A stretch of 12,504 bases of DNA. Origin: Propionibacteriaceae bacterium (lineage in GTDB: Bacteria > Actinomycetota > Actinomycetes > Propionibacteriales > Propionibacteriaceae). The DNA is taken from the NCBI GenBank assembly GCA_009787035.1, contig WRGV01000014.1:1-12504 (forward strand). The letters are read 5' to 3'. The notes under the pieces were generated by a model. The model had not been told where the DNA came from and ran no database searches. It worked only from the letters and a program-made list of their open reading frames with translations. Both the position numbers and the translations under genes were made by a program. The first letter of the stretch is position 1. Every line of letters begins with the position of its first letter. Shown here in pieces: positions 826 to 11,489 of the stretch.

Positions 826-901
826 GGGACACGATGCCCCCGCACCACCCCGAATCGTCCCCCCAACGCCACATGTGGCCCACGCGGGTCGACTTTGTCC
901 C
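826..901. repeat. 76-bp GGGACA...TGTCCC element, copy A
   Basis: The unit begins GGGACACGATGCCCC and ends GACTTTGTCCC, giving 6-bp inverted termini (GGGACA/TGTCCC) 76 bp end to end. Two other units in the window (10005-10080 and 10133-10208) have the same termini and exactly the same length. A second TTTTGTCCC follows at once (903-911) and is part of the palindrome GTCCCGGGAC (907-916). The unit contains a perfect 12-bp palindrome, GCCACATGTGGC (868-879). It lies 22 bp beyond the lacI stop, between lacI and the GH13 promoter. No target-site duplication is visible. Function unknown; a REP/BIME-like 3' element or a decayed miniature inverted-repeat element are both possible. Confidence 0.5.
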
Positions 902-8214: not shown

Positions 8215-9147
8215 ATGACGCAGCCTGACCACAGCGCCGCTGCGGCGCTGACCACCCCATCGCCGTCCAGCCCGCTGACTGGCCTGGACGCCGTCGCCGC
8301 CCGCAAAGGCATGTCGCCGCGGCAGAAAACGCTGGTCGTGCGCATCGTGCAGTACGTGGTGTTCGTCGGCGTCGTGCTCGCCGTGGTCTTCACGGCCAAC
8401 TGGCACCAGCTGGGCCAGGTGTTCGCCCGGTCGGACGTGCTGCGCATCACGTTCACCAGCACGACCGACGTGACCCTCGGCACGTCCAAACACGTTATCA
8501 ACGGGCTGTTGCTCGCCCTGTGCAACACCATCGTGTACAGCGTCGGCGCGTTCATCATCGGCCTGCTGCTCGGCACGGTGCTGGCGCTGATGAAGCTGTC
8601 GAGCGTGGGGCCGTACCGCTGGGTGGCGACCATCTACGTCGAGCTCTTCCGCGGGCTGCCCGCGCTGGTCGTGCTGCTGATCTTCGGCATGCTGCCCGTG
8701 GCCTTCCCGGGGCTGCAGTTCCCGCTGGATCCGTACGGAACCGTGTGGCTCGCGCTGGGCATGGTGTATGCGGCGTACATGTCCGAGACCATTCGCGCGG
8801 GCATCCAGGCCGTGCCGAAGGGGCAGATCGAAGCGGCGCGCACGTTGGGCATGCCCGCGGGCATGGCGACGCGGCGCATCGTGTTGCCGCAGGCGTTCCG
8901 CATCATCACCCCGCCGCTGACCAACGACCTCGTGTCGCTGGTCAAGGACTCGTCGCTGGTCTACATCCTGGGCCTGACCGCGCAGGGCTTCGAGCTGACC
9001 AAGTTCGGGCGCAACCTGCAAAACGCCAACGCCAATCTGACCCCCATCGCGCTGGCGGGCCTGTGCTACCTGGTGATCACGGTGCCGCTGGGCTTCCTGG
9101 TGCGCCACATGGAGAACAAGTCGGCGACGAGGGCGGGGGCACGATGA
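8215..9147 (+). CDS. Polar amino-acid ABC transporter permease (HisM/GlnP type)
   Basis: A 310-residue inner-membrane permease. A Ser/Pro/Ala-rich cytoplasmic N-terminus (1-38) precedes a first membrane helix (about 42-61), then an extracytoplasmic stretch and further helices near 97-125, 138-160, 175-190 and 273-297. The segment [18 protein letters not shown] starts the conserved BPD_transp_1 domain, [13 protein letters not shown] is a family signature, and the EAA loop [20 protein letters not shown] (206-225) couples to the ATPase. A single permease gene is present, so it would act as a homodimer or with a partner elsewhere. Start at 8215: AGGA lies 4 nt upstream. The stop overlaps the ATPase start by 4 bp. 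Confidence 0.95.
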
Positions 9148-9965
9148 GCGAGACGACCGCGGGCGCCGGCCCGATGATCCGCGTGGACGGGCTGCACAAG
9201 AGCTTCGGCGAGCTGGAGGTGCTCAAGGGCATCGATCTGGCCGTCGATCCCGGCGAGGTGCTGTGCATCATCGGGCCGTCCGGCTCGGGCAAGAGCACGC
9301 TGCTGCGCTGCATCAACCTGCTGGAGCAGCCCACCGAAGGCGACGTCTGGGTGCATGGCATCAAGCTGACCGACCAGGATGTGGACATCGACCGGGTGCG
9401 CGCGCACATGGGCATGGTGTTCCAGAGCTTCAACCTGTTCCCGCACCTCAATGCGACGCAGAACTGCATGCTCGGCCAGACGGCCGTCCTGGGGCGCAGC
9501 AAGGCCGAGGCCAAGCGCATCGCCGAGCACAACCTGGTCAAGGTGGGCCTGTTCGACCGCATGGATTACTTCCCGGCCCAGCTGTCCGGCGGGCAGCAGC
9601 AGCGCGTCGCCATCGCGCGGGCCCTGTCGATGGACCCGCTGCTCATGCTGTTCGATGAGCCGACCAGCGCCCTGGACCCCGAGCTCGTGGGCGACGTGCT
9701 GTCCGTGATGCGCCAGCTGGCCGACGACGGCATGACCATGGTCGTGGTGACGCACGAGATGGCCTTCGCCCGCGATGTCGCCGACCGCGTGATCTTCATG
9801 GACGAGGGTGTCATCGTCGAGCAGGGCCCGGCGGCCCAGGTGATCGGCGCGCCGACCCAGGAGCGCACCCAGGTGTTCCTGCAGCGCGTGCTCGACCCGA
9901 CCCATGTCCGCGAGATCGGCGAGCTCGAACCCATCGACGTGGCGCCGGCCTGGACCCACGCGTAG
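9144..9965 (+). CDS. Polar amino-acid ABC transporter ATP-binding protein (GlnQ/HisP type)
   Basis: A 273-residue ATPase with all motifs intact: Walker [10 protein letters not shown] (44-52), Q-loop Gln94 in [13 protein letters not shown], signature LSGGQQQR (147-154), Walker [16 protein letters not shown] (from 166) and switch His204 in [17 protein letters not shown] is typical of the polar amino-acid subfamily. It drives import by the upstream permease and lipoprotein. The ATG overlaps the permease TGA as ATGA, implying translational coupling. The C-terminal tail after about residue 245 is longer than in E. coli GlnQ (240 residues) and has no recognised domain. Confidence 0.97.
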
Positions 9966-10004: not shown

Positions 10005-10080
10005 GGGACAGAACTGCCCCTGAACATCGACCGGGCGCCTCTTCATGCCGATGTGCGATCGCCACAGACCGATCTGTCCC
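10005..10080. repeat. 76-bp GGGACA...TGTCCC element, copy B
   Basis: Starts GGGACAGAACTGCCCC and ends GATCTGTCCC; the termini GGGACAGA/TCTGTCCC pair over 8 bp and the flanks continue the match (CGAAAT before, and the complement of CCAGAAC after). Length is exactly 76 bp, as in copies A and C. Inside, ACATCG (10024-10029) and CGATGT (10049-10054) form a further 6-bp stem. Aligned without gaps to copy C, 37 of 76 positions match, with 18 of the first 25. It lies 39 bp after the ABC operon in the convergent gap with tgt. No target-site duplication and no protein are apparent. Confidence 0.55.
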
Positions 10081-10132
10081 GTTCTGGAACGGCGCCACGG
10101 CTGCCCCGATCAGCCACTCCCGGGCCATCTGC

Positions 10133-10208
10133 GGGACAAGACTGACCTCAAACCTCGGAAACGGCACCAGATCGGCCAAAAACCGACGTCTGGATGCGGT
10201 CTTGTCCC
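10133..10208. repeat. 76-bp GGGACA...TGTCCC element, copy C
   Basis: Starts GGGACAAGACTGACCT and ends GGTCTTGTCCC; the termini GGGACAAGAC and GTCTTGTCCC pair perfectly over 10 bp. An internal hairpin is formed by CCAGA (10167-10171) and TCTGG (10189-10193), with CGG/CCG inside it. It is separated from copy B by 52 bp and ends 60 bp from the tgt stop. With copy B it fills half of the 303-bp convergent gap 9966-10268; no gene is seen there. Confidence 0.55.
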
Positions 10209-10268: not shown

Positions 10269-11489
10269 TCAGCTGCGGCGCTGGTAGTGGACCAGGAAGT
10301 CGTCGCGGAAATCCTCGAAGGTGCCGTCGACCAGCGAAGCCCGGATGTTGTCGACCAGGCGGACGGTGAAGCGCTCGTTGTGGATCGTCGCCAGCGTCGC
10401 GGCCAGCATCTCGCGGGCCTTGAACAGGTGGTGCAGGTACGCCTTGGTGTAATGCTGGCAGGTGTAGCAGTCGCAGCCGTCTTCCAGTGGCTCCAGCACG
10501 CCGCGGCAGCCGGCCGTGTCGACGTTGTAGCGGCCGCGCGCGGTGTAGATGGCCGCGTTGCGGGCCACGCGCGACGGCATCACGCAATCGAACGTGTCGG
10601 CGCCGCTGGCCACCGCGGTGAAGATGTCTTCCGGCTCGGAGATGCCCAGCAGGTGTCTGGGCTTGTCTTCGGGCAGTTCCTGCGCGCACCAGCCGACGAT
10701 CTCGCCGATCGCGTGCTTCTCCAAGGCTCCGCCGATGCCGTAGCCGTCGAAGCCCGCCTCGCCCGATCGGGTCGCGGCGAGCCCCTGGCAGGCCTGGCGG
10801 CGCAGGTCCTCGTACTGGGCACCCTGGACGACGCCGAACAGCGCCTGATACGGCTTGCCAGCCCGTAATTCGGTGAGCCGGACGTGCTCATCCAGACACC
10901 GCTGCGCCCAGCGCTGCGTGCGCTCCACCGACCGCTCCTGGTACTCGCGCGTGTTGCGCAGCGTGGTCAGCTCGTCGAACGCGAACATGATGTCGGCCCC
11001 CAGCTGGTGCTGCACGCCCATGCTGACCTCCGGCGTGAACCGGTGTTTCGAGCCATCCAGCGGCGAGCGGAAATCGACGCCGTCCTCATCGACCCGCGAC
11101 AGGCGCTTGCGCCCGCGCGCGCTCGCCTTGTCGTCCCTATCGAGCTCGGACGCCTCCATCGCGATGACCTTCTTGAACCCAGCGCCCAGGCTCATCACCT
11201 GGAAGCCGCCGGAGTCGGTGAACGTCGGGCCGGGCCAGTTCATGAACGCGCCCAGGCCCCCGGCCGCGTCCACGATCGCCGGGCCGGGCTGCAGATACAG
11301 GTGGAAGGCGTTCGCCAGCACGGCCTGCGCCCCCAGCTGGGCCAGCGACTCGGGCAGCACGGCCTTGACGTTGGCCTTGGTGCCGACCGCGATGAACGCG
11401 GGGGTGCGGATCTCGCCGTGCGGCGTGTGGATCACCCCGGCCCGGCCCAACCCGTGCCGCGCCTGGATAGAAAACCCGAAGTCGCTCAC
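10269..11489 (-). CDS. tgt: tRNA-guanine transglycosylase (queuosine pathway)
   Basis: A 406-residue bacterial TGT, which exchanges guanine-34 of GUN-anticodon tRNAs for a queuine precursor (preQ1 or queuine). Visible residues are the substrate-pocket Asp92 in FTDSGGFQVMSL, GVVQGAQYEDLR, the GYGIGGALEK loop, the nucleophile Asp301 in DTFDCVMPSR, and zinc ligands Cys339, Cys341, Cys344 and His370 in a C-x-C-x2-C-x25-H arrangement. It is about 20-30 residues longer than E. coli TGT; a charged Arg/Lys/Asp-rich segment at about 113-137 accounts for much of this. Start: the GTG at 11489 overlaps the rsmE stop (GTGA) and gives the standard N-terminus SDFGFSIQARHG. No other queuosine gene is in the window, so whether the host makes or salvages the base cannot be said. 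Confidence 0.97.
   Translation of the reverse strand: MSDFGFSIQARHGLGRAGVIHTPHGEIRTPAFIAVGTKANVKAVLPESLAQLGAQAVLANAFHLYLQPGPAIVDAAGGLGAFMNWPGPTFTDSGGFQVMSLGAGFKKVIAMEASELDRDDKASARGRKRLSRVDEDGVDFRSPLDGSKHRFTPEVSMGVQHQLGADIMFAFDELTTLRNTREYQERSVERTQRWAQRCLDEHVRLTELRAGKPYQALFGVVQGAQYEDLRRQACQGLAATRSGEAGFDGYGIGGALEKHAIGEIVGWCAQELPEDKPRHLLGISEPEDIFTAVASGADTFDCVMPSRVARNAAIYTARGRYNVDTAGCRGVLEPLEDGCDCYTCQHYTKAYLHHLFKAREMLAATLATIHNERFTVRLVDNIRASLVDGTFEDFRDDFLVHYQRRS

Follow-up and report, generated by a model that had tools for sequence, protein, structure and literature searches.

The stretch of DNA analysed here (the window; 12,504 nucleotides) comes from a Propionibacteriaceae MAG, and three copies of a 76-bp element lie within it. 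Two of these, copies A and B, share a convergent gap, in which a + strand gene ending at position 9965, presumably encoding an amino-acid ABC transporter ATPase, faces tgt on the - strand:

826..901, no strand assigned: element copy C, 76 bp, with weaker arms and 6 terminal pairs
9144..9965, + strand: left neighbour, outside the element, the presumed amino-acid ABC transporter ATPase gene
10005..10080, no strand assigned: element copy A, 76 bp, exact GGGACA/TGTCCC ends; arms at about 10005-10027 and 10058-10080, variable centre at about 10028-10057
10133..10208, no strand assigned: element copy B, 76 bp, exact GGGACA/TGTCCC ends; arms at about 10133-10155 and 10186-10208, variable centre at about 10156-10185
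10269..11489, - strand: right neighbour, outside the element, tgt

The gene coordinates confirm the location given in the earlier note, and its description of copies A and B as 76-bp units with GGGACA/TGTCCC ends, identical at 18 of the first 25 bases and 37 of 76 overall, and with paired termini of 8 and 10 bp, is exact throughout; copy C was overlooked. Of the three copies, one has a strong fold in its own right: as judged by folding energy relative to shuffled sequences, copy B folds strongly (z -4.2), while copies A (z -1.0) and C (z -0.1) do not. By chance, 0.002 GGGACA/TGTCCC pairs would be expected in the window at one given spacing. Directly after copy C, at 894-911, a second end-like stretch, TTTGTCCC-GTTTTGTCCC, yields an extra pair at 86 bp and is perhaps the remnant of an adjacent copy. 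Among 80 listed loci, the host Tgt is closest to that of MAG Ct408_bin103 (79% identity).

In the host genome (G000; 2.14 Mb searched, 81% complete) the forward pattern GGGACA...TGTCCC was found 81 times when spans of 67-87 bp were allowed, and 78 of these matches measure 74-78 bp, against none for the reversed-pattern control in either range, bearing out the earlier suggestion of a dispersed element with conserved ends and length. Spacing was examined in 52 host contigs (552 kb), of which 31 had been selected as match-bearing and 21 had not. At spans of 67-89 bp, 44 of the 51 pairs measured 75 (18 pairs) or 76 bp (26 pairs), the expectation being 0.054 per spacing; the others were spaced at 77 (four), 74, 78 and 86 bp (one each). 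When every possible inverted hexamer pair in the same 552 kb was scanned de novo, GGGACA at 76 bp ranked first and GGGACA at 75 bp second. Absence from close relatives, which had been named as grounds for doubting the element, applies to five of the six congeners searched (no matches) but not to G003, which has 11. The pattern-positive genomes are G000, G003, G175, G183, G187, G190, G191, G193 and G194; to these we added G182 once the element had been seen beside its gene (24 pattern matches, three of which, on contigs C1 and C24, we judged to be chance from their arms). Single matches in G090, G139 and G205 were set aside as chance, a decision taken after looking. Copy number per carrier ranges from 1-2 up to about 80, and a search of viral contigs for GGGACAAAC-N57/58-GTTTGTCCC found none.

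The conservation analysis used ungapped stacks of copies that had the same length; the hexamer ends were imposed by the search, and their invariance is therefore no finding. Beyond the hexamers, the best-conserved arm bases in G003, G193 and G194 are A7, A8, C11 and A18, which fall within GGGACAAACTC and CAG at positions 17-19, and just outside the arms position -1 is T and position -3 is A; in the other g8 genomes the arms tend towards GGGACA-NNN-CTGCC. In G003, G193 and G194 positions 20-38 are mostly low in information. The element thus consists of two inverted arms, each some 23 bp long, with a variable centre of 29/30 bp between them. Among dispersed copies the centres are unrelated and the length is constant. 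Several unpaired arms were also seen, isolated or at contig ends.

Most copies are intergenic. With a gene caller trained on the window’s known genes, 33 of 44 host copies lie in gaps and 11 overlap called genes, which is more than chance at that spacing, and part of these overlaps are perhaps gene-call errors; exact 75/76-bp pairs sit deep within called host genes at L006:6288, L008:5919, L016:1936, L020:5997, L022:346 and L025:5266. All 48 copies in G003, G193 and G194 are intergenic (spans 74-77), and so are 43 of the 44 found, with one mismatch permitted, in five other genomes; called coding sequence makes up 65-94% there. Since the occupied gaps are of every orientation, convergent, divergent and tandem, and copies are not confined to gene 3' ends, we dropped a terminator or 3'-end element as a candidate. 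Integron attC was dropped on sequence, by comparison with its core site.

On host contig C111 seven copies surround a single gene, five before it and two after. Its 284-aa product combines an AbiEi-like N-terminal domain (PF13338 just over the cut-off; PADLOC AbiEi, E 7.5e-14) with a DUF559/MTES_1575 C-terminal domain (PF04480 just over the cut-off, PF18741 below it) in which we find an EDxHD/Vsr-like catalytic fold, the reference nucleases being the EDxHD homing endonuclease I-Bth0305I (3r3p) and Vsr (1cw0); a PDB sequence search returned one, irrelevant, match. Of 198 family genomes, 140 have AbiEi-DUF559 relatives at E 1e-6 or better. A close subfamily, delimited at E 1.4e-58 or better (42-57% identity; the next genome scores 1.2e-46, and the cut-off was fixed after the scores were seen), is found in G000 (two genes), G194, G183, G175, G190, G191 and G182, and G187 has a fragment of such a gene. 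The close-subfamily gene is thus present in 8 of 10 element carriers, counting the G187 fragment, as compared to 0 of 188 other genomes, a contrast that rests on post hoc choices. G003 and G193 carry elements, and no close-subfamily gene was found in their assemblies, which are 81% and 59% complete respectively. All seven close-subfamily loci have an element upstream of the gene, at distances of 133, 92, 96, 100, 161, 96 and 440 bp; that of G194 carries one mismatch, and G182 has an additional one-mismatch copy 150 bp upstream. The second host gene begins about 150 bp from a contig end reading GTCCC, perhaps a broken element copy. The gene’s own contig holds 21 of 24 pattern matches in G182, 8 of 10 in G175 and 5 of 12 in G190; in the host most copies lie away from it.

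We propose, with a probability of about 0.6, that the units are copies of a dispersed 75/76-bp inverted repeat that is the predicted operator of an AbiEi-Vsr/homing-type nuclease, which likely helped to multiply them. Seen directly are the 75/76-bp length, arms that are conserved on either side of a centre that varies, a placement mainly between genes, the elements upstream of the gene and, in several relatives, copies crowding around it. The crowded gene encodes a predicted DNA-cutting enzyme that likely binds the repeats and may have been the means of their spread. Among the candidates proposed earlier was a paired binding site for an unknown protein, which fits; the likely protein can now be named, by prediction, as AbiEi-DUF559. 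Each arm of about 23 bp would bind one AbiEi-like domain, and the C-terminal nuclease domains of two protomers would come into contact over the centre, so that in this model the arm distance is fixed and the centre is free to diverge. By analogy with AbiEi, which represses its own promoter, the upstream site would repress the nuclease gene. An occasional cut at or near a bound site, repaired by copying another site, may then create new copies (the least certain of these steps), chiefly close to the gene and at intergenic places where they cause little harm, with recombination giving rise to the tandem arrays. On this view the window copies would be solo sites that serve no function at their convergent gap.

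A close precedent is the published operator of AbiEi and Rv2827c, in which two 23-bp inverted repeats separated by 3 or 13 bp lie upstream of the gene (PMC7319586). As there, a pair of inverted repeats of about 23 bp lies upstream of a gene for an AbiEi-fold protein; unlike there, the arms (taken as 23 bp) are 29/30 bp apart, a nuclease domain replaces the AbiEi C-terminal domain and copies are dispersed genome-wide. Another DUF559 protein, Caulobacter VsrA, has been linked to methylation and to mismatch repair (PMC12907096). Unlike EDxHD homing endonucleases, which the nuclease domain resembles, the gene is associated with solo non-coding repeats, and we saw no intron, intein or interrupted target. 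Our search of the open-access literature found nothing tying DUF559 or AbiEi to dispersed repeats.

If the element is an operator, distant AbiEi-DUF559 genes should carry private arms, and we tested this. At 23 loci of distant DUF559 genes no GGGACA-type element lies upstream, none even within one mismatch; some loci have looser matches, with up to 3 mismatches. Inverted repeats matching at 17/20 or better were present in 13 of 44 windows flanking 22 distant genes, as compared to 1 of 171 control windows, and a locus’s own arms are repeated at six loci (L209, L212, L215, L223, L228 and L230). We searched for four flanking repeats genome-wide (the controls of all four were 0), and three are dispersed, with arms that differ from the GGGACA type. 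The G074 repeat has 21 exact copies in its genome and none in 19 congeners; in the stretches examined there are 23 copies, 22 of 82 bp and one of 81 bp, 22 of the 23 in gaps. The G138 repeat, 77 bp long, has three copies, of which two closely flank the gene, and G149 has two copies with related arms, with none in 18 other genomes. A 65/66-bp repeat (distance between pattern ends) occurs four times in G126, three times in G124, once each in G123 and G012, and in none of three others. The G140 repeat is single-copy, beside its gene. A further pair with similar arms far from the gene at L211 was judged to be chance.

Several side observations concern these loci. At L209:1410-2470 (G138), the 77-bp repeat, the nuclease gene and a second 77-bp repeat form a compact unit of about 1.06 kb resembling a minimal mobile element, and outside it we saw no direct repeat. 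At L256:1989-2094 (G074) one copy is exactly centred in a perfect 12-bp inverted repeat, as if inserted at a hairpin tip; insertion into palindromes was dropped as a general rule, this being the single striking case with no excess in any copy set. The motif GCGACACGCC/GGCGTGTCGC, or a near variant, lies in the centres of G074 copies (L244-L262) and of the upstream repeats at L211, L212, L215 and L222, recurring across genera in repeats with differing arms, and the centre of such repeats may not be wholly free. Finally, in G002 (L149:2600-2800) and G003 (L150:340-560), another gene starts just downstream of tgt, where the window has its element pair; its product is AbiEi-DUF559-like by eye, and in front of the gene is an inverted repeat whose inner arms are TTTTCGTCC/GGACGAAAA.

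The spread of the element by the nuclease is the least certain part and weakest link of our explanation. Counting against the explanation as a whole are G003 and G193, the distance of most host copies from the gene, the 11 of 44 that overlap genes, the gap of 29/30 bp set against the published 3 and 13, the single-copy G140 repeat and the lack of a clean filled/empty site: a gap that holds an element in G190, where it is 191 bp long, measures 9 bp in G191 and 23 bp in G183, but its borders could not be aligned exactly, nor could those for G182.

Among the alternatives, we regard as rather unlikely an ordinary regulon, in which the fusion is a transcription factor, dispersed operators regulate their neighbours and the nuclease domain plays no part in spread. 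The element upstream of its own gene at seven of seven loci suits it, and so does synteny: of 128 gaps bounded by the same pair of genes in two genomes, 5 have elements in both, 9 in one and 114 in neither (p 1e-4), with the G183 side of one of the nine one-sided gaps holding a degenerate 75-bp copy (L242:7852-7926). Elements also precede the same genes, such as metG and pcrA, in different genomes. Shared sites retain their arms and their length to within 1 bp, the centres being different. A regulon would nonetheless not lead one to expect the use of convergent gaps (the window’s included), tandem arrays, variable distance from copies to start codons or crowding at the nuclease gene. The 27 hand-picked neighbouring genes (housekeeping, transport and sugar genes, and 5 with no NCBIfam match) are unrelated in function, and no coherent regulon is apparent among them.

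It is less probable still that the repeats are non-autonomous elements of MITE or REP type moved by an unrelated transposase, with the link to the nuclease gene due to hitch-hiking. Short, non-coding, dispersed copies with inverted ends, present in some relatives and absent from others, are what this would produce. Unlike in MITEs, no target-site duplication of 4-8 bp was found in G074 (22 copies), G000 (44), G003 (10), G193 and G194 together (34) or other g8 genomes (35), and direct repeats of 2-3 bp in the same sets are near the null with no clear excess; length is fixed even though centres are unrelated, and no parent transposon, nor any longer unit with the same arms, was recognised in the stretches examined, with partners sought to 3 kb. 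A decayed miniature inverted-repeat element, one of the earlier candidates, is not supported, given the missing target-site duplications and the unrelated centres at fixed length. Other DUF559 genes, with different arms, share the architecture, which also argues against hitch-hiking. REP/BIME sequences are short intergenic repeats associated with a single-copy gene for a Y1 HUH transposase, RAYT (TnpA-REP), and the present repeats share with them high copy number, tandem clusters, lineage-specific expansion and repeats adjoining one single-copy enzyme gene. Unlike RAYT, the enzyme here is an AbiEi-Vsr fusion. Where REP is described as a 20-40-bp palindrome with a GTAG or CGTC tag at one end (PMC3733652), the present element has two protein-like sites, a fixed 75/76-bp span, a free centre and GGGACA/TGTCCC ends. 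The Y1 HUH transposase domain PF01797 was not found in G000 (81% complete), while 5 of 14 control genomes were positive, and the RAYT partner was dropped; the 3'-end structure of REP/BIME type suggested earlier is likewise not supported, given copies in divergent gaps as well.

We consider a structured RNA or attenuator, a 75-nt hairpin acting in transcripts, very improbable. Copies do fold well, and, with in-gene copies and near-duplicates excluded (n of 7 and 18 in G000, 8 in G003, 6 and 6 in G193, 10 in G194), gap copies of the host’s 76-bp class pair better within a copy (0.514) than between copies (0.424; z 4.3-4.4), an excess for which our preferred model has no need and which counts against it. 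In G003, G193, G194 and the host’s 75-bp class, exchanging halves between copies brought no loss of pairing (z -1.4 to 0.5), so the pairing there derives from the conserved arms. The structural test set in the earlier note thus gives a split answer, with pairing beyond the arms in one of the classes compared, and outside the host, where tested (G003, G193 and G194), the arms are kept as sequence and not as pairing. Moreover, elements lie in gaps of all orientations, and Rfam covariance models up to E 1 gave no element match in the window, L032, L006, L020 or L047. Just as improbable is a defence or self-marking role, in which bound copies mark host DNA or titrate a nuclease that attacks unmarked DNA: an AbiEi-type domain fused to a nuclease fold is in keeping with it, but the range in carriers’ copy number is not.

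Returning to the operator reading, we tentatively extend it, at somewhat less than even odds, to the family: AbiEi-Vsr (DUF559) fusions may be an unrecognised class of selfish genes, each recognising the fixed-length, paired-arm operator beside it and using break-and-copy repair to multiply solo copies of it through the chromosome. Every lineage would have its own arms, and the REP-RAYT strategy would have been invented a second time, independently. The constant arm distance and varying centre lend themselves to a simple biochemical test. If the reading is right, every AbiEi-DUF559 gene has its own predicted DNA target, making the role of many orphan nucleases directly testable; a class of intergenic repeats would be explained, and bacteria would have a second type of enzyme, besides RAYT, that lives with dispersed repeats.
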